NCBI RefSeq assembly: GCF_014191545.1
Contig: NZ_AP023361.1
Span: forward strand, 1,888,501-1,952,500
Length of the DNA stretch: 64,000 nucleotides
Reading direction: 5' to 3'
Source: Terrihabitans soli
GTDB lineage: Bacteria; Pseudomonadota; Alphaproteobacteria; Rhizobiales; Methylopilaceae
Position numbers and translations under genes: made by a program. This document shows positions 15,529 to 25,472 of the stretch, piece by piece; the first letter of the stretch is position 1, and every line of letters begins with the position of its first letter. The notes beneath the pieces are model-generated. The model had not been told where the DNA came from and ran no database searches. It was given only the letters and a program-made list of their open reading frames with translations.

Positions 15529-16974
15529 TCAGACGCTGGCGTCGGCGAAGATCTCTTTCTTGATAACCGCGTGAACACCCCAATTGCCGTCGACGACCTG
15601 GGTAATGCCGAAATCGACCGCGATCGACATCAGCGACACCGCTTCGTCTTCGGTGAGGCCCTTGGTGGTCATCAGGAAGGTGCGCATTTTCTTGAACGCA
15701 TCTTTCAGCGCGAGATCGACCGAGCTCTTGCCGAAGATATCGCTCTGCGCATTGGGGCCGAGCTCGGCGAGGAAGTTCGCATAGCTGAAGCCGTGGATCA
15801 GCCACTCGTCCTTGGTTTCCAGCATCGGATATTCGAGCTGTTCGAGCGGCGTGCCAGCGATGTCGGCCTTCTTGTGCAGGATGATTTGGAACGTGCCGGT
15901 GATCGAGCATTCGATCGCCGTGCCGCACATTTCTGAATCGCCCTGCGAGGCATGAGGGTCGCCGACCGACAGCAGCGCGCCTTCGACCGCGACGGGGTAA
16001 TACATCGTCGCGCCCTTGCCGATGCGCCAGTTGTCGATATTGCCGCCGGTATAGCTCGGCGGAATCGAGTTGACGTAATCGGCTTCCTTCGGCGCAAGAC
16101 CGATAACGCCGAAATGCGGACGGATGGGAACGCGCACGCCTTTCAGCACATCTGTGTTCTTCTTGATGGTCGCATGATCGACCGGAACGCCCGGATAATC
16201 GATCGTCTTGTGCACGACGCCCGACGGGTCGGTCTGCGGCGTCCATTTGTAATTATAGGCCGCCTTCGCCCAATTGCGCGCGCCGCTCGCATCCATCTCA
16301 TAGATGGTGATGACCTCGCGCGGTCCGTCCAGCAGCTCCTTGTAATGGAAGCCCCACCAGGCTGCGGCGTTCGAGCCGAAGGCCTTGCCCTTGTGATCGG
16401 GATGCATGGACGGCCGGAACTTGGTGTCGACGATGCGTACTTCGAGCACATCGCCCGGCTCCGCGCCGCGCACGAAAACGGGCCCGGTGCAGATATGAAC
16501 GCCAAGACCGCCGCCGCCACCGAGCTTGGTGTCGTTCGGATCGCCGGCGCCGCGGCGCGCGACCTTCTTCTGATCCTTCGTCCAGTAGAAGACGCTTTCG
16601 GCCCCCTCATCGCCCTTGATCATCAGCGAGGCATCGTCATTGGCGTGATGCGTCAGCGCTTCAATGGTGACGATGTCGCCGGAATCGATCTCGACCTGCG
16701 GCTTCAGCTTTTTCGAGAAATAGCCCCAATGGACCGTCTGGTCGTTGGCCGGCAGGTAATGATAGCTCGGCTGGTCGGGCGCCTTGGCGGCAGAGGCCTG
16801 CGCCAGGGCCGGCGTCACCAGAGTCGAGGCCGTGCCCGCGGCGAGCGCCGCCGCGCCGCCCGTCGCCACAAAGGCGCTTTTCAGAAAGCTGCGGCGTTCC
16901 ATGCCGAGCGCTTCGCGCATCTTGGCCCGATGCCGTTCAAACTCGGGACAATTGACATCATCTCCGGCGCACAT
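15529..16974 (-). CDS. acetamidase/formamidase family protein, Tat-exported
   Basis: Predicted amide hydrolase of the FmdA/AmdA family (short amides to the acid plus ammonia). The 481-residue product carries a twin-arginine signal (MERRSFLKSAF, Arg at residues 27-28) followed by an Ala-rich helix ending near TPALAQA, so it should be exported folded by Tat. The body has the family blocks VHWGYFSKKLKPQ, RPHFGVIGLAP, GGNIDNWRIGKG and SVGDPHASQGDSEMCGT, with conserved His, Asp and Glu. Start ATG at 16972-16974 has GGAGG 5 nt upstream. It is divergent from an AraC-acetamidase fusion with a similar C-terminal domain. Confidence 0.88.
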   Translation of the reverse strand: MCAGDDVNCPEFERHRAKMREALGMERRSFLKSAFVATGGAAALAAGTASTLVTPALAQASAAKAPDQPSYHYLPANDQTVHWGYFSKKLKPQVEIDSGDIVTIEALTHHANDDASLMIKGDEGAESVFYWTKDQKKVARRGAGDPNDTKLGGGGGLGVHICTGPVFVRGAEPGDVLEVRIVDTKFRPSMHPDHKGKAFGSNAAAWWGFHYKELLDGPREVITIYEMDASGARNWAKAAYNYKWTPQTDPSGVVHKTIDYPGVPVDHATIKKNTDVLKGVRVPIRPHFGVIGLAPKEADYVNSIPPSYTGGNIDNWRIGKGATMYYPVAVEGALLSVGDPHASQGDSEMCGTAIECSITGTFQIILHKKADIAGTPLEQLEYPMLETKDEWLIHGFSYANFLAELGPNAQSDIFGKSSVDLALKDAFKKMRTFLMTTKGLTEDEAVSLMSIAVDFGITQVVDGNWGVHAVIKKEIFADASV

Positions 16975-17230
16975 GTTTGCCTCCATCTCTCCGGCGCCCC
17001 CGCGGCGCATGGATCGGAAGCTGCGGCCGGACGGCCTTGGGAGGAATGACCGGACACGCCCAATCTCTTGCCTCATGGCGCAACGCGCGCGTGTCCAAGT
17101 TTTTGTGCGCGCCGGGACAAAGGCGCGAGCACACGCCTGCCTTGCCACCCGACCCCACTCACCGCAGGATGGCGTGCGTCTTGCCTGTCCCAGCTTGCTT
17201 GTATTGAGGGGGCTTTCCGCAGGAGGAGAC
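16975..17230. promoter_or_regulatory. divergent control region between the two acetamidase-family genes
   Basis: A 256-bp spacer between oppositely transcribed genes must carry both promoters. Rightward, TTGCCT near 17179 and TATTGA near 17201 are weak -35/-10 candidates, and AGGAGGAG lies before the ATG at 17231. An open frame crosses this region from 16784 but has no start signal of its own. No clear AraC-type direct repeats were found by eye. Confidence 0.45.
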
Positions 17231-19552
17231 ATGTCAGCCGGGCCGACCGTCATTTCGATCGACGCCTTCCCGCTCGCCGGCCAGCGCGATGCCTGGGCCG
17301 AGGCGCTGGCATCCGTGGGCCTTGCGAGCCGGGTGCCCGAGGGAATGCTGCTCGCCGGCGATATCGGCATCATGCGCTCGCCGAGCGGCGCGATGCTGGC
17401 CCGCATGCGCTCCTCCCCTCAGCAGATCGCCAATGCCGGCCTGCGCAAAAGCGGCGATCCCCTCGTCGTCATGTTCCACACCGACGGGCGCGGCGAACTG
17501 CGCGGCGGTGCGCTGACGCGCGAATTTGCCGAAGGCGATGTATCCATCGCGGACCGGGCCCAGAACTTCACGCTCGATCTGCGCGAAGACTTCGAAATCC
17601 TGATGCTCGAAATCCCGCGCGACCGGCTGCTCGGCCGGCTCGGGCGCACACGCATCCAATTGCCGGCCGTGCTGGGTGCTACGGTCGCCGCCGCGGCGGT
17701 GCGTCCCGTTATGCGCACGCTGGTTTTGCATTTCGAGCAGATCGGCGATGCCGACCTCGCCTCCGCCGAGATCGCGGTGACGGAGCTCATCGCCGGCGCA
17801 TTGCTCGGCGAAGCGCGGCTCGAGGATGAAGGCGGAACGCAGACGCAGACCGCGCATTTCCGCCGCGTGACGGCGGCCATCGAGGTCCGGCTCGTCGATC
17901 CCGGTCTATCCATGGCGGCGATTGCGGCGCAGGAAGCGCTGTCCCAGCGCTACATCCAGAAACTCTTCGAACTGCAGGACACGACCTTTTCGGACTATGT
18001 CCGGCAGAGGCGGCTCGACCGTTCGCGGCTCGATCTCAGCGATCCCAGGCATGCCGCCGACGGCATTGCCGAGATCGCCTTTCGCTGGGGTTTTCGAGAC
18101 CCTGCGCATTTCAGCCGCGTCTTCAGCGCCGCCTACGGCACTTCTCCGCGCGCCTTCCGCAACGCCGCCGAGCGCCTGCCAAAAATCTATCCGCAGCGTG
18201 GACGGCCTATTGAGAAGAGCCTGCCGCACAATACGGTCGTCGGCACGAGCCAGCCCGGCCCGGCGGCCCGCGTGCGCGAAATCCGCGAGCGCGCCGGCGC
18301 CGCCGAACCTTCGCGCCATCCGCGTCACCAGATTCGCGTGAACAAGGACAATGTGCACTGGGGCTATCTCAGCCGCTCCATCCCGCCGGTGCTGCGTGTG
18401 TCATCCGGTTCGGAAGTCGTGATCGAAACGCTGACGCAGCATGCCTTCGACGATTACGAGCGCATGATCAAAGGCGATGCCGGCGCCGAGAGCGTGTTCC
18501 ACTGGACGGCGGAGGGAAAGAATGTCGAGCGGCGCGGCGCCGGGCCGATGAACGCCTCGATCCTCGGGCGCGGCGCGGGCGAAGGTTTCGGCGTCCATAT
18601 CTTCACCGGTCCCGTCTTCATCAAGGAAGCCGAGCCCGGCGATATTCTTGAAGTCCAGATTCTCGACATCGCGCCGCGGCCGAGCGCCAATCCGGATTAT
18701 GCGGGCCGCTGCTTCGCCTCAAACGCCTCGGCCTGGTGGGGCTATCAATATTCCGATCTTCTGGCCGAGCCGAAAAAGCGCGAGACCGTCACGATCTATG
18801 AGATGGACCCGGACGGCGCGTTCGCGCGCGCGGTCTATTCGTATCGCTGGACACCGCAGGTCGATCCGTTCGGCGTGCGTCACGACACGATGGATTATCC
18901 GGGCGTTCCGGTCGATCACACATCGGTCGAAGAACTGCACGGCATCATGCAGAATGTACGCGTTCCGCTGCGCCCGCATTTCGGCTGCATGGCGGTCGCG
19001 CCGCGTGAAAGCGATCTGATCGACAGCATTCCGCCCGGCTATTTCGGCGGCAATATCGACAATTGGCGCGCCGCTAAAGGCACGACGCTCTATCTGCCGG
19101 TCGCGGTGCCCGGCGCTCTCTTCTCCGTGGGCGACGGCCATTTCGCGCAAGGCGACGGCGAGATCAACGGCACGGGTCTCGAGGCCTCGCTCACCGGAAC
19201 CTTCCGCTTCACCGTCCATAAGAAGGACGGACAGATGAAACCGCATCTGCGCGGCCTGTCCGCTCCGCTTCTCGAAACGCCGCAGGAATATGTGCTGCAC
19301 GGTTTCAGCTATCCGAATTATCTGCGCGAACTCGGCCGCAATGCGCAGTCGGAGGTCTACAAAAAATCCTCGTTATCCAAGGCGCTGCGCTCGGCCTTCC
19401 GCGGCACGCGCCGCTTCCTGATGGACACCTGGGGCCTGTCCGAAGATCAGGCGATCTCGCTGATCTCGGTCGGCGTCGATTTCGGCATCACCCAGGTCGC
19501 CGACGGCAATTGGGGCGTGCACGCCGTGATCCGAAAATCCATGTTCCAGTAA
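17231..19552 (+). CDS. AraC-family regulator fused to a complete acetamidase/formamidase domain
   Basis: One uninterrupted 773-residue product joins a transcription factor to an enzyme fold. Residues about 20-190 look like an AraC_binding_2/FeaR-type ligand domain; about 210-312 are the AraC double helix-turn-helix (LSMAAIAAQEALSQRYIQKL and IAFRWGFRDPAHFSRVFSAA). After a basic linker, residues about 370-773 match the full FmdA/AmdA fold: VHWGYLSRSIPPVL, RPHFGCMAVAP, GGNIDNWRAAKG, SVGDGHFAQGDGEINGT. Those motifs keep the His/Asp/Glu residues of the neighbour. There is no signal peptide, so it should be cytoplasmic. The internal GTG at 18338 has no ribosome binding site, so two separate proteins are unlikely. 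Regulation of the divergent acetamidase is inferred. Confidence 0.87.
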   Translation: MSAGPTVISIDAFPLAGQRDAWAEALASVGLASRVPEGMLLAGDIGIMRSPSGAMLARMRSSPQQIANAGLRKSGDPLVVMFHTDGRGELRGGALTREFAEGDVSIADRAQNFTLDLREDFEILMLEIPRDRLLGRLGRTRIQLPAVLGATVAAAAVRPVMRTLVLHFEQIGDADLASAEIAVTELIAGALLGEARLEDEGGTQTQTAHFRRVTAAIEVRLVDPGLSMAAIAAQEALSQRYIQKLFELQDTTFSDYVRQRRLDRSRLDLSDPRHAADGIAEIAFRWGFRDPAHFSRVFSAAYGTSPRAFRNAAERLPKIYPQRGRPIEKSLPHNTVVGTSQPGPAARVREIRERAGAAEPSRHPRHQIRVNKDNVHWGYLSRSIPPVLRVSSGSEVVIETLTQHAFDDYERMIKGDAGAESVFHWTAEGKNVERRGAGPMNASILGRGAGEGFGVHIFTGPVFIKEAEPGDILEVQILDIAPRPSANPDYAGRCFASNASAWWGYQYSDLLAEPKKRETVTIYEMDPDGAFARAVYSYRWTPQVDPFGVRHDTMDYPGVPVDHTSVEELHGIMQNVRVPLRPHFGCMAVAPRESDLIDSIPPGYFGGNIDNWRAAKGTTLYLPVAVPGALFSVGDGHFAQGDGEINGTGLEASLTGTFRFTVHKKDGQMKPHLRGLSAPLLETPQEYVLHGFSYPNYLRELGRNAQSEVYKKSSLSKALRSAFRGTRRFLMDTWGLSEDQAISLISVGVDFGITQVADGNWGVHAVIRKSMFQ

Positions 19553-19587: not shown

Positions 19588-20673
19588 TCAGTCTTCCTCG
19601 TCGCGGTCCTTGTCGCCTTCCCGCGCCAGCACACGCGACAGGGTCGGCGCGATAAGCAGGACGGTGACCGCCCTGAACACATGGCATGTGACGACGAAGG
19701 CAATCTCATAGCCCATCGCATAGGCCAGAATGGTCATCTCGGAGAAGCCGCCCGGCGCAAACGCCAGAATAAGCGCCGGGAACGACACGTTGAGAAAGTT
19801 TGTCGTCACCTTCGCCATCAGGACGGCCGCGGACAGCATGATAATGGCCCAGCCGAAGGCTTGCAGGGCCGTCGTGCGAAGTTCGAGCGCGGTGATCCCG
19901 GCAAAGCGTGCTCCGGCAATCGAGCCGATGATGACCTGCATGATAACGATCAGCCATCCTGGCGGGCTTGCCGTTGAAAAGCCCGTCACGTGAACCGCGA
20001 TGCTGATCATGAGCGGAGCGAGCATGATGCCGCCCATCCGCCGGAACGGCCGCCCGATAAAGAAACCGGCGGCGCCGCAGCTTATCAGCAGTGCGCAATC
20101 GGCCAGCGTCAGCGGAAGAGCGTTCGCGTGATGCGGCACGGGCATCGGGGCGCCCGAGTGGTGCGCGATCAAACGCACCAGGAACGGCAGGCATACGACA
20201 GCGGTGATGACCCTCGTCGTATGCACGAGAACAAGGACGCGGATATTGCCGCCGAGCTGCGAACCGAGCAATGACAACTCGCCGAGACCGCCGGGCGTTG
20301 CGGAAAACACCGCGGTGACATTGTTCTGCTTGCAGACCCGCGTGAAGTAGACCCAGCCGAGTGTGGTGATCAGAATTGAAAAGAGCAGCAGCGCCGGGAT
20401 TGCCGGCCACCAGGTGATCAAAGCGAGCGCGACCGCCGGCGTAAAACTGCTCCCCGCCATCACTCCCAAAGTAGGCCGGGCGAAGTTCCTGAACAGTAGC
20501 GACAGTTTCCACGGTATTTTGAAGACCGCGAGAATGGCCGCAGCCGTCAGCGATCCCAAGGTCCAGGGCAATGGGATGTGAAGATTTACGAACAAATAGC
20601 CGCCGGCAAACCCGCAGGCCAATGCAAGCAGCGTATTGCGAATCCAGATCCACTCGATGGCAGGGCGCCACAT
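19588..20673 (-). CDS. AbrB family (PF05145-type) membrane protein, putative transporter
   Basis: Polytopic inner-membrane protein of the AidB/AbrB duplication family, often mislabelled ammonia monooxygenase or transcriptional regulator. The 361-residue product has about ten hydrophobic helices in two repeats; each repeat shows a related segment, SATPGGLGELSLLGSQLGGN in the first and FAPGGFSEMTILAYAMGYE in the second. Transport of an organic acid is plausible from its place at the end of the tricarboxylate gene block. Start ATG at 20671-20673 is chosen because upstream residues are not membrane-like; it has no strong ribosome binding site. Confidence 0.75.
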   Translation of the reverse strand: MWRPAIEWIWIRNTLLALACGFAGGYLFVNLHIPLPWTLGSLTAAAILAVFKIPWKLSLLFRNFARPTLGVMAGSSFTPAVALALITWWPAIPALLLFSILITTLGWVYFTRVCKQNNVTAVFSATPGGLGELSLLGSQLGGNIRVLVLVHTTRVITAVVCLPFLVRLIAHHSGAPMPVPHHANALPLTLADCALLISCGAAGFFIGRPFRRMGGIMLAPLMISIAVHVTGFSTASPPGWLIVIMQVIIGSIAGARFAGITALELRTTALQAFGWAIIMLSAAVLMAKVTTNFLNVSFPALILAFAPGGFSEMTILAYAMGYEIAFVVTCHVFRAVTVLLIAPTLSRVLAREGDKDRDEED

Positions 20674-20752
20674 TGCGGAGACCAATCTTGGTAATGTCAG
20701 GCGGGCTGGCGCGCTGGCGGGTCGAAATGGTGAGCGTCGGACATAAAGAAAA

Positions 20753-22255
20753 TCAGAAGATCCCCTGAACTGATTGCGATGCGGCGGCCAACCGCTTGGG
20801 ATCGAGCTGCACATTGATCGCATCTACCTCGGCCGCGCCGAGTTCGGGCAGCCGCTGCACGAGATCGAGGAAGCGTTCGGATTCCTCGCTGGTGATGATG
20901 CCTTCCGTCAGGGTGCGGAACTTCTTGATGTAGTCGGGACGCTTGAACGGCGCCGCGCCGCGCGGATGGGAATTCGCCACGGCCATTTCATCGACCATCT
21001 GCGTTCCGTCCTTGAAGGTGATGACGACGCGGGCGCCGTGATCCTTGTCGATCGAGGGCGGCTCCTTGAAGCGGCGCTCCCATTCGGGATCGAACACGGT
21101 CTGGATTTTCTTCCACAGCCGCACGGTGTCGGGACGCTGTTTGCGTTCCGGCGCGTAGCTCTTGTCGTGATGGAAGGTGCCGTCCTGCAGCGCGACGGCA
21201 AAGATGAACATCATCGAATGATCGAGGGTCTCGCGCGTTGCGTTCGGATCCCATTTCTCCGGATCGTTCGATCCCGACCCCATCACATAATGCGAGCGTT
21301 CCTTGGTGTGGATGTCGATCTTCTCAATGGAGTCGAAATCCTTGATTTGGCGGCCCATCTTGAAGGCAAGATCGATCGGCGCCTGGCCGTGATAGCCGGC
21401 CGAGTGCTCTTTGGTGTAGCTCTCGAGGATCGCGGCGCGCGGCTCGTCCGCATCGCGCAGGCCGATCGTATAGGCAACGTCCGGGCCGCCCATCAGCCGT
21501 CCGAGATACTCGCCCTCATAGAGCGGCGACGGACTGGATTCGCCGCGCATGGCGCGGTCGACGGCCTCGATCGCCAGCTTGCCGACATGTCCCGGCGCGA
21601 ACGCCTTCCACGAGGACAGCATGCCTTTGCGTCCCTGACGGGTCGACAGCGAGACATGCCCGGCGTGCTGCAGGGCCTGATAAGTGACTTCGCTCGACAG
21701 CCCGAGAAGCTTTCCAAGTCCCGCGGCAATCGACGGACCTAGGTGACCGACATGGTCGAACGCGAAGGACGAAATCGGAATGTCCTTGGCGAGGGCGATC
21801 TGCACTTCGTAGGCCACCGCGACGGCGCGGACGAGATCCATGCCGCTGCGACGGGATTGCTGAGCCACTGCGAGCAGAGAGGGAATGTTGTCGCCAGGGT
21901 GGCAGCCCGTATCGATAATGATCGCGTCGTGGAAATCGAGCTCGCGGACCGCAGCGCTGTTTGCCCAGGCCGCCCATTCGCAATGGACCCGTATGTTGTT
22001 CGGGACGCCGAAGATCGCCGCGCCGCCCGGGCGAGTGTGCGCCAGCGCCTGCGCCCGCGCGACGCTGACGGGCGCGCGGTCAAGCGCACAGACCGCCACG
22101 GCCGCGTTGTCGATGAAACGGTTGATGACCATTTCGGTGACAGCGTCATCGTCCGGGGCGTTGGCGGTCGCAAGCTCCGCCAATCTCCATGCCAACTCCG
22201 TCGAACGTTCGGGACGCTCTTTGGGGCGATGTGCACGAACCTCAACACGCTTCAT
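20753..22255 (-). CDS. MmgE/PrpD family protein, 2-methylcitrate dehydratase-like (PrpD1)
   Basis: Member of the family that dehydrates, isomerises or decarboxylates small di/tricarboxylates. At 500 residues it is the longest of five paralogues here and the closest to classical PrpD: DTGCHPGDNIPSLLAVAQ, KEHSAGYHGQAPIDLAF, the DHSMMFIFAVALQDG block and SHPRGAAPFKRPDY near the end. It follows the TctA-TctB fusion gene by 25 nt and precedes the AbrB-type gene. Dehydration of a tricarboxylate brought in by Tct is inferred. Confidence 0.82.
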   Translation of the reverse strand: MKRVEVRAHRPKERPERSTELAWRLAELATANAPDDDAVTEMVINRFIDNAAVAVCALDRAPVSVARAQALAHTRPGGAAIFGVPNNIRVHCEWAAWANSAAVRELDFHDAIIIDTGCHPGDNIPSLLAVAQQSRRSGMDLVRAVAVAYEVQIALAKDIPISSFAFDHVGHLGPSIAAGLGKLLGLSSEVTYQALQHAGHVSLSTRQGRKGMLSSWKAFAPGHVGKLAIEAVDRAMRGESSPSPLYEGEYLGRLMGGPDVAYTIGLRDADEPRAAILESYTKEHSAGYHGQAPIDLAFKMGRQIKDFDSIEKIDIHTKERSHYVMGSGSNDPEKWDPNATRETLDHSMMFIFAVALQDGTFHHDKSYAPERKQRPDTVRLWKKIQTVFDPEWERRFKEPPSIDKDHGARVVITFKDGTQMVDEMAVANSHPRGAAPFKRPDYIKKFRTLTEGIITSEESERFLDLVQRLPELGAAEVDAINVQLDPKRLAAASQSVQGIF

Positions 22256-22280
22256 AAAACGCTCTCCACCCTACCCAAGA

Positions 22281-24254
22281 TCAATTGAACGGCCACGGCA
22301 TGCTCACCCAGCCCTGCAGAAGGCCGGTGGCAAAATGGATGACCATCACATTCGAAAGCAGAGCGAGGAATGCTGTCGTGCCCACTGCCAGACCGAGCAT
22401 GACGGTCCACCGCGCACGCGCTTCGATCCACAGGAACGAGATAATGAAGATCGCCATGCCGAGGACGAAACCGACGAGATACATCATGCCGAGAAGGCCG
22501 AAGATCCAGGCCATGTAGTGCATGGCTCCGACGCGATATCCGTTCTCTCCCTCGCGCCACCGGGCTTCGGAGTCGAACGCCATGATGCTCTTCTCGCGGT
22601 AGCGGTACAGCGAGAAGGCGCCGACCGCGATGCATACGAGCGTGATGCCGGCGATGATCACCGTGAAAACCTGACCGAGGAAGGACAGATCCCACACGCT
22701 GTAGATCGCGTAGAGCGCGGTGAGCGCGAGAGCCGCGAGGAAGACAAACTGCGGCAGGGTCTCGCGGCGCGTCAGCGCGATAGATGTGCCCTCTGTCTCG
22801 ATTTGCGGGCGATAGCGCAGACCCGCATAGAGGCACACAGCGACGATGCCGAAGAGCACCCAGATCAGCGGCCGCGAGAGCAGCCGGTCGATCGTATAGA
22901 ACTGCATGGTCTGATACAGCAGCGCCTCGATATTGTTCTGCAGCACAAAGCCGACGAGGAAGGCCGGGCGCGAATAGCCGAAGCGCCGGAAGAATAATCC
23001 GGCAAATCCGACGGCGCACAGAACGATGAGATCGCCCCAGCTGCGTGACGCCTGGAAGGCGCCGAGGAAGCAGATGGTGAGCAGGACCGGACCGAGATAG
23101 GCCATGCGGATCGTCGTGAGACGAGCGAGCCCACCCGAGATGAGGAAGCAAATTCCCGCGCCGAGCACGTTGGCGAGCGCGAGCGACCAGATGATCGTGT
23201 AGGTCAACTCAAGATTTTTGCCGACCATGTCGGGGCCGGGCCGAACGCCCAGCAGAATGAGACCGCCGAGAAAAATCGCCGTCGATCCTGAACCCGGAAT
23301 GCCGAACACGAGCGTCGGAATGAGTGCGCCGCCGGCATTGGCATTGTTGGCGGATTCCGGCGCGATGACGCCGCGAACATCGCCTTTGCCGAAATTGTCG
23401 CGCGGCTTGCATGTCTGCACGGCGTGGCCGTAGGCAAACCATTCCGAACCGCCGATGGGCAGCGCGCCGATGATGACACCGATGACGGAGCAGCGCACCA
23501 CAAGCCATTTATTGGCGATGACGTCGCGCGCGCCCTTTATCCATCCGCCGCCGATTGGCGGACGGTCGGAAATCGCGTCGCCGCGGCGCAGGAGGCTCAC
23601 GATCTCGGGAAGCGCAAAGAGGCCGAGCGCGATTGCTGCAAGCGGCAACCCATCACTGAGATAGAAAAAGTCGCCGACGATCATGCGCAGCTCGCCGGTT
23701 GCAGGGGCGCCGCCGACGGCGCCGAACAAGAGGCCGATACCGCACGAGATCAATCCTTTGACCAGGCTCGATCCGGAGAGAACGCTGACCATGGTGATGC
23801 CGAGCAGAGTGAGCAGCAGCAATTCACCCGTACCGAAGGACAGCACGATCGGTTTGGCGACGATGATCGCGACCGTCAGAACTGCCGCACCGAAAATGCC
23901 CCCGAACATCGAGGCGACATAGGCCGCCGACAGAGCGCGCGCGCCCTCCCCTCGCTTGGCCATCGGAAAACCGTCGATCATCGTTGCTTGCGATCCGCTG
24001 CCGCCGCCGGGAATGCCCATCAACACCGATGTAACGACGTCACCCGTCGCCACCACGGCAAGAATGCCGGTCATCATGGCGATCCCGGACATGAGATCCA
24101 TGCCGTAAATAAACGGAACGACAAGCGCCATACCCGCCGTCGTGCCGAGCGCCGGCAGAATACCCACGAGAAGTCCAATTCCCACGCCCAACAGCAGGTA
24201 CATGAATGTACCCGGCGAAAGCACATCGGCGAGGCTGGCAAAAATGACGTCCAT
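22281..24254 (-). CDS. tripartite tricarboxylate transporter, TctA-TctB fusion
   Basis: Membrane part of a Tct importer that works with a periplasmic TctC. Residues 1-500 are TctA: LLVGILPALGTTAGMALVVP, IPGGGSGSQATMIDGFPMAK and PESANNANAGGALIPTLVFG are the conserved loops. After a loop beginning YRPQIETEG, about 150 more residues form four hydrophobic helices like the small TctB subunit, which is otherwise missing from this cluster. Length is 657, against about 500 for TctA alone. It lies downstream of tctC with an intervening terminator-like hairpin. Confidence 0.87.
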   Translation of the reverse strand: MDVIFASLADVLSPGTFMYLLLGVGIGLLVGILPALGTTAGMALVVPFIYGMDLMSGIAMMTGILAVVATGDVVTSVLMGIPGGGSGSQATMIDGFPMAKRGEGARALSAAYVASMFGGIFGAAVLTVAIIVAKPIVLSFGTGELLLLTLLGITMVSVLSGSSLVKGLISCGIGLLFGAVGGAPATGELRMIVGDFFYLSDGLPLAAIALGLFALPEIVSLLRRGDAISDRPPIGGGWIKGARDVIANKWLVVRCSVIGVIIGALPIGGSEWFAYGHAVQTCKPRDNFGKGDVRGVIAPESANNANAGGALIPTLVFGIPGSGSTAIFLGGLILLGVRPGPDMVGKNLELTYTIIWSLALANVLGAGICFLISGGLARLTTIRMAYLGPVLLTICFLGAFQASRSWGDLIVLCAVGFAGLFFRRFGYSRPAFLVGFVLQNNIEALLYQTMQFYTIDRLLSRPLIWVLFGIVAVCLYAGLRYRPQIETEGTSIALTRRETLPQFVFLAALALTALYAIYSVWDLSFLGQVFTVIIAGITLVCIAVGAFSLYRYREKSIMAFDSEARWREGENGYRVGAMHYMAWIFGLLGMMYLVGFVLGMAIFIISFLWIEARARWTVMLGLAVGTTAFLALLSNVMVIHFATGLLQGWVSMPWPFN

Positions 24255-24344
24255 AACGGACTCTCCTGGGGGTATTCAGAAAACGGCATGAGATGCTGCG
24301 GATTTTCCGCCACGGATGCCGGCTGCAAACTGAAAAAAATCGGT

Positions 24345-24377
24345 ACAAAAAGGCCGGCGGCACGAAAGCCGCCGGCC
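24345..24377 (-). terminator. intercistronic terminator/attenuator between tctC and the TctA-TctB fusion gene
   Basis: On the minus strand a perfect 10-bp stem GGCCGGCGGC / GCCGCCGGCC (24352-24361, 24368-24377) is followed directly by TTTTT. It sits 12 nt after the tctC stop and about 90 nt before the fusion gene, so it probably lowers permease relative to binding protein. Confidence 0.8.
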
Positions 24378-24389
24378 GATGTCATGTCA

Positions 24390-25472
24390 TCAGATCTTGA
24401 AACGCTCTTTCAGCCATTCGTCGACCCATTTGCGGGTTTCCGGGCTCATCGTGATTGCGTTCTCCCAGCTCTTCTGGGCCGCATCGCCGAGGACCAGCGG
24501 GTATCCGCCGAGCTCGGCCTTGGCGGCTTCGATGAAGACCGGGTCCTTGGACATCGCTTCGAAGGCCTTGTCGTAGGCATCGACCACATCCTGCGGGCAG
24601 CCACCGGGCAGCACCATGCCCTTGGAGTTGATGACGCCGCTGTAGAAGAAGACCTTCCAGACATCATAGGCGGGGCCAGACGGATCCTTGCCGTGAATCT
24701 GCTTGTAGGCTTCGTCGAACGACGGAAGATCCGGGAATTCCGGATCGCGGCCGAGCTTGCCGTTCTTGTCGGGATAACCGAACGAGAACAGCGGGATCAC
24801 TTTGCCTTCTTTGACGAGCGGCTCGAAGGCCTGCTTGAAGGTGCCGGCCGTCTCGCGGCCGCCGTTGAGCTCACCGCGGAAGAAGGCAAGGTTCGCTTCC
24901 GACGCGTCGAGGCCGACCACGGGGCGAGCCTGGGTTCCGAGCAGTTCGAGGCTGAGCAGCGTGCGAATATCGCTGCCGCGCGGAGCCGCAATCGGAACGA
25001 CAAGTTTGCCGTCTTCGACTTTGCCGAGTTCCTTCGCGGTCTTCACACCGGGATCCTGGTTGACATAGAACACGCTGCCGACCGGCGATGCGGCGACGGC
25101 TCGCCATTTATGCGGATCGAACTGGATCTTCTTCGCATCCGGCGCCAGCGAATAGCTGAAGAACAGCGACGAGCTCACCGTCAGAACGGTCAGGCCGTCT
25201 TTGGTCGCTTCGCGTTCAAACGTGTTGGCGCCGGTGACCTGACCGCCGCCCGCGATGTTTTCGATGATCATCGTCGGCTTGCCCGGCAGATGCCGCGCAA
25301 GATGCGGAACGACGAGACGCGTCCAGAGGTCGCCGCCGCCGCCCGGTGCGAAGGGGGCAACGACGCGGATGGTCTTGCCCGTGAAGTCCGCTGCCACGGC
25401 GGGGGCGGCGGCCATGGCGCTAACCAGGCTGACCGCGCCGAGCGTGGCGATCATTTTCTGCTTCAGGTTCAT
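24390..25472 (-). CDS. tripartite tricarboxylate transporter substrate-binding protein (TctC/Bug family)
   Basis: Periplasmic solute-binding protein delivering a carboxylate to TctAB. The 360-residue product has a Sec signal peptide (MNLKQKMIATLGAVSLVSAM, cut near PAVAADF) and the family start IRVVAPFAPGGGGDLWTRLV, with IIENIAGGGQVTGANTFERE. It is somewhat longer than the common 320-330 residues. It is followed by the TctA-TctB fusion gene. A tricarboxylate ligand is inferred from the catabolic neighbours. Confidence 0.87.
   Translation of the reverse strand: MNLKQKMIATLGAVSLVSAMAAAPAVAADFTGKTIRVVAPFAPGGGGDLWTRLVVPHLARHLPGKPTMIIENIAGGGQVTGANTFEREATKDGLTVLTVSSSLFFSYSLAPDAKKIQFDPHKWRAVAASPVGSVFYVNQDPGVKTAKELGKVEDGKLVVPIAAPRGSDIRTLLSLELLGTQARPVVGLDASEANLAFFRGELNGGRETAGTFKQAFEPLVKEGKVIPLFSFGYPDKNGKLGRDPEFPDLPSFDEAYKQIHGKDPSGPAYDVWKVFFYSGVINSKGMVLPGGCPQDVVDAYDKAFEAMSKDPVFIEAAKAELGGYPLVLGDAAQKSWENAITMSPETRKWVDEWLKERFKI

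Follow-up and report, generated by a model that had tools for sequence, protein, structure and literature searches.

In regulators of the MocR/GabR type a GntR-type winged helix is joined to an aminotransferase fold, which senses GABA and PLP (PMC6917764, PMC5320631), and in trigger enzymes such as PutA an enzyme fold and transcription control are also combined in one chain. The AraC/XylS one-component regulators (FeaR-like, AraC_binding_2 plus HTH_18) are built of a cupin and a double helix-turn-helix (HTH). The FmdA/AmdA family (PF03069) has a long subfamily that includes 3b9t, the solved structure of a Tat-exported acetamidase/formamidase relative from Methylobacillus flagellatus. In Methylophilus methylotrophus the amide-use cluster fmdCABDEF brings a regulator gene together with FmdA and an ABC transporter (PMC10781810); the putative regulator there is a separate protein, unlike the one that we describe here, in which an AraC-type regulator and an FmdA domain are parts of one chain. 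It was found in the window, a stretch of 64,000 nucleotides of the Terrihabitans soli genome. We found no paper on such an AraC-FmdA fusion in the literature that our search covered, most subscription journals and the domain-architecture databases lying outside it, and the latter may list the join automatically. The original prediction that the join belongs to no described family thus stands as far as papers are concerned, although public records already list these proteins under generic labels, as "acetamidase/formamidase family protein" or "AraC family transcriptional regulator".

The fusion gene occupies positions 17231-19552 on the plus strand, where translation gives a single stop-free frame of 773 codons (773 aa), as had been proposed, with three Pfam domains. 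These are an AraC_binding_2 cupin-type ligand and dimerisation domain (aa 74-191, 17450-17803; 31.5 bits against a curated cut-off of 27), the AraC double HTH (HTH_18, aa 231-311, 17921-18163; 62.6 bits against 33.6) and, over the rest of the protein, the FmdA/AmdA acetamidase/formamidase domain (aa 368-772, 18332-19546; 100.8 bits against 27), all on the plus strand. The structure 3b9t aligns end to end with residues 362-772 (E 1e-165). Foldseek, applied to the halves of an AlphaFold model built from eight fusion sequences, matched one half to 3b9t and the other to the AraC-type regulators CuxR, ToxT, Rns and BgaR. The AraC half of this model has good confidence, residues 314-361 of the linker have low confidence and parts of the FmdA half are poor (mean pLDDT 65.7), so we rest the FmdA identity on the sequence match. 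Between the halves lies the interdomain linker (aa 316-367, 18176-18331). The three motifs predicted for the enzyme half are in place as well: RPHFG at aa 581-585 (18971-18985), where F584 and G585 are invariant or nearly so across fused and free FmdA; GGNIDNW at aa 606-612 (19046-19066); and GDxHxxQGDxE, here GDGHFAQGDGE, at aa 634-644 (19130-19162).

By its double HTH and AraC-type cupin, both above the Pfam cut-offs, the protein is a member of the AraC/XylS regulators, from which it differs in having a third domain, a large enzyme fold, C-terminal to the other two. By its full-length domain and the family-invariant residues it also belongs to FmdA/AmdA; it resembles the long subfamily with 3b9t over the whole domain and its invariant motifs, being about 55-63% identical to free relatives, and differs by the joined AraC regulator, the lack of an export signal, and the replacements H403Q and Y622L. 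The score against the NCBIfam equivalog for formamidase FmdA (NF045496) is 60.7 bits, below the cut-off of 500; the fused protein is not an orthologue of the classical formamidase. With MocR/GabR it shares the arrangement of DNA-binding domain, linker and enzyme fold, and sensing by the fold is what we propose; however, both the DNA-binding domain and the enzyme fold are unrelated, and Pfam found neither a GntR winged helix nor a fold-type-I aminotransferase in the fusion protein. The likeness to trigger enzymes is that one chain combines an enzyme fold with control of transcription, catalysis by the fusion being putative.

After removal of duplicates, named genomes, relatives of the window genome and plasmids yielded 31 distinct loci with the join, all but one of them intact. 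They represent Hyphomicrobiales, Rhodobacterales (Paracoccus, Chachezhania, Acidimangrovimonas), Sphingomonadales (Novosphingobium) and Burkholderiales (Paraburkholderia, Caballeronia, Variovorax), and dozens of bacteria from soil and plants share the join. When Pseudomonadota were sampled evenly, 8 of 398 genomes had it, the genome of T. soli counted, and a class-level sample added two further fusions (G566 and G822), the first of which is probably the same record as the plasmid hit H11. In a midpoint-rooted tree of 75 FmdA domains, those of the 31 fusions make up one side of a single branch (support 100/97) and fall within the long subfamily of free FmdA. Such a single clade suggests that the fusion arose once and then spread widely; repeated independent fusions with a neighbouring gene can be ruled out, as the fused domains form one clade whatever the type of the partner.

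Five close AraC relatives have no FmdA domain (G486, G709, G837, G865 and G751), and in the AraC tree they nest inside the fused group. A tree that holds all fused sequences together was rejected (AU p 0.0035), which contradicts the view of these relatives as ancestral forms and makes a later loss of the enzyme domain more likely. From these trees, the simplest reading would be a later loss of the enzyme domain in one lineage; alternatively, FmdA of the same lineage may have been joined to the AraC lineage a second time. In G486 a free FmdA gene of the short type ends a few bases ahead of the unfused regulator; the stretches fetched around the other four relatives, some of them on short contigs, contained no FmdA gene. 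Unfused relatives (L089:3617-7699 and L120:5040-8145) adjoin Rieske-type and ring-dioxygenase-like genes, and this suggests that the regulator lineage has moved to another pathway.

In the window, the fusion gene is divergent from a free FmdA paralogue on the minus strand (15529-16974, with an alternative start at 16986), 56% identical to the fused domain and the probable target of the regulator. Its Tat signal (ERRSFLKSAF) bears out the prediction of a divergent exported paralogue. A free FmdA gene is beside or close to the fusion in 25 of the 31 loci and absent nearby in 6. The partners occur in three arrangements. In the window, its genus, Sinorhizobium and probably Chachezhania the partner is a long FmdA with a Tat signal; in a second arrangement it is a long FmdA of the cytosol that shares its operon with an ABC transporter of the amino-acid type and often with RidA; and in Ancylobacter, Paracoccus, Novosphingobium and P. 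aromaticivorans it is a short FmdA. As the partner enzyme type changes and the fused domain stays one clade, these data point to a regulatory role that is not tied to one enzyme subtype. Nitrile hydratase genes are located near the fusion in Caballeronia, fitting nitriles as an amide supply. On the other side of the fusion gene in the window, a minus-strand group at 19588-25472 encodes an AbrB-family membrane protein, an MmgE/PrpD protein and TctA and TctC-like transporter parts.

The divergent gap contains a block that is conserved in the alignment of four genus members and holds a candidate operator at 17096-17121, CAAGTTTTTGTGCGC-N7-CAAA, a direct CAAR repeat with a pitch of 22 bp that lies upstream of both divergent genes, 135 bp from the fusion start and about 110-120 bp from the start of the paralogue. 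Half-sites 22 bp apart are separated by about two helical turns, as expected of AraC-type tandem sites. The general form, CAARTTTTTGTGCGC-N7-CAAR, precedes each of the seven fusion genes in the genus as well as a fusion gene in G092. In four whole genomes of the genus all 7 exact matches lie upstream of fusion genes, those of both fusion paralogues, and 17 other whole genomes have none; for the core of the pattern, with one mismatch allowed, about 530 kb of fetched sequence contained no other site. Judged by this distribution, the element is a strong operator candidate, and, if so, its direct repeat about two turns apart would be a further likeness to AraC/XylS regulators. Its extension to all fusions was not upheld: a PWM scan gave partial resemblance only, with an TTGTGCGC core in L045, L051, L063, L054 and L065. 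A one-mismatch copy was noticed near another AraC-type gene in a genome that has no fusion (G007:C9:56854-56879). The promoter scan of the gap (16975-17230) returned no sigma-70-like promoter.

We propose that the protein is probably a cytosolic one-component regulator of amide use, in which a co-opted FmdA fold senses an amide or its product and which controls the adjacent amidase gene. The AraC half would bind the direct-repeat operator within the divergent promoter region, and the C-terminal FmdA fold, with its kept active-site signature, would bind an amide or a hydrolysis product. The signal may then travel from the FmdA fold via the flexible linker and the AraC cupin, so that the adjacent free amidase gene would be switched on, the direction of control being presumed, and the regulator's own gene probably as well. 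In the window, the Tat-exported target enzyme would act outside the cytoplasm, with the fused sensor copy staying inside. Sensing by the enzyme fold is modelled by analogy on MocR/GabR, and the arrangement suggests that the fold was borrowed as a sensor of its own substrate. The regulator reading is supported by the 31 loci in four orders, the single clade, the intact signature, the low dN/dS of both halves, the adjacency in 25 of 31 loci, with partners of varying type, and the genus-specific element; against it count the partial resemblance of the element in distant fusions, the 6 loci with no free FmdA nearby, the five AraC relatives that lack FmdA, the cupin as a plausible sensor in itself and the lack of a sigma-70-like promoter. 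The original prediction of an amide sensor or trigger enzyme controlling the paralogue is, given the adjacency, the operator candidate in the gap and the intact signature, the best-supported one, but the sequence does not choose between sensor and trigger enzyme.

It is in general true that a frame error can fuse neighbouring genes, and in the copy on plasmid pRlX5 of Rhizobium johnstonii TP60 (L061:6430-8839), the sole broken locus of the 31, the AraC part is annotated in two pieces. We nevertheless regard it as extremely improbable that the region encodes two proteins or that the join is a sequencing or assembly artefact, the latter, a frameshift included, being ruled out by the 30 intact homologous joins from independent assemblies. 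The T. soli genome, 99.1% complete, consists of one contig of 3.11 Mb. Among the fusions, linkers differ in both length and sequence; right behind the HTH, R323-G324-x-P326 (RGRP in the window protein, aa 323-326, 18197-18208, plus strand) is invariant in 30 of 30 intact fusions, and no conserved internal start was found in the linkers of these, which makes internal re-initiation appear unlikely. The invariant RGxP reads RGRP in about half of the intact fusions and resembles an AT-hook core. Against close relatives, dN/dS by NG86 is about 0.12-0.14 for FmdA, 0.18-0.26 for AraC and 0.26-0.63 for the linker, ratios that are approximate as dS is near saturation, and they indicate that both halves are under purifying selection in close relatives. 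Could the AraC cupin then be the sole sensor, with the FmdA domain as a folded passenger for oligomerisation or stability? The model predicts a complete AraC cupin at good confidence, and the five relatives without the FmdA domain indicate that the AraC half can work on its own; with this cupin at the N-terminus, the enzyme fold need not be the only part that senses amide, and it is plausible that the cupin is itself a sensor. But a passenger needs no full set of active-site-type residues, and FmdA is the better conserved half (84% identity within the genus, against 64-80% for AraC), so we consider a cupin acting as the sole sensor improbable.

A more serious competitor, still doubtful in our opinion, is a true trigger enzyme, in which the fused FmdA would still hydrolyse amide and turnover or the substrate-bound state would set DNA binding. 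The comparison of 31 fusions with 34 long and 10 short free FmdA sequences speaks in part for it: residues invariant in free FmdA are kept in all or nearly all fusions, among them D416, H456, N608, D610, D635, H637, E644, E651, D750 and Q755, with all the family-invariant polar residues retained in the 31 fusions (G606, G607, N608 and D610 of GGNIDNW, and D635, H637, D642 and E644 of the third motif, in 31 of 31), and purifying selection on the FmdA domain is strong. On the other hand, the fusions differ consistently at positions that are fixed in long free enzymes, where H403 has become Q in 29 of 31 and Y622 has become L in all 31, both positions being variable among short free FmdA; a separate free amidase is usually present; and the fused domain changes faster than the free partner, being less conserved in 56 of 64 matched locus pairs, which are not independent of each other. 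Taken together, the pairs and the kept residues describe a domain that is a little freer than a working enzyme and has its signature intact. As the reaction mechanism of the solved family member 2WKN is still termed elusive (PMC5353710), we name no residues as catalytic, and with the FmdA half of the model poor in parts we make no structural claim for residues 403 and 622. Somewhat less likely again is the wider possibility of a bifunctional amidase-transcription factor family in Alpha- and Betaproteobacteria; here DNA binding would be set by the catalytic state of a still-active FmdA, and regulation would follow intracellular amide turnover, with the bulk enzyme outside.

In the sensor reading that we prefer, the AraC family would gain an enzyme-derived sensor by a route known from MocR, where a duplicated pathway-related enzyme is joined to a DNA-binding domain. 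The loci would provide sets of regulator, operator and target for amide use in rhizobia, Ancylobacter, Paracoccus, Variovorax and Paraburkholderia, and natural relatives that apparently shed the enzyme part (for instance, L089:6725-7699) permit a direct comparison. A regulator sensing small amides would also serve as a biosensor part. A second AraC-FmdA fusion, absent from the window genome, is carried by sister species (L041:7076-9406, L043:7028-9400 and L044:7377-9728); it is 58% identical and has the same operator candidate, and in L041 it adjoins apparent TRAP-transporter-type and gamma-glutamyltransferase-like genes.
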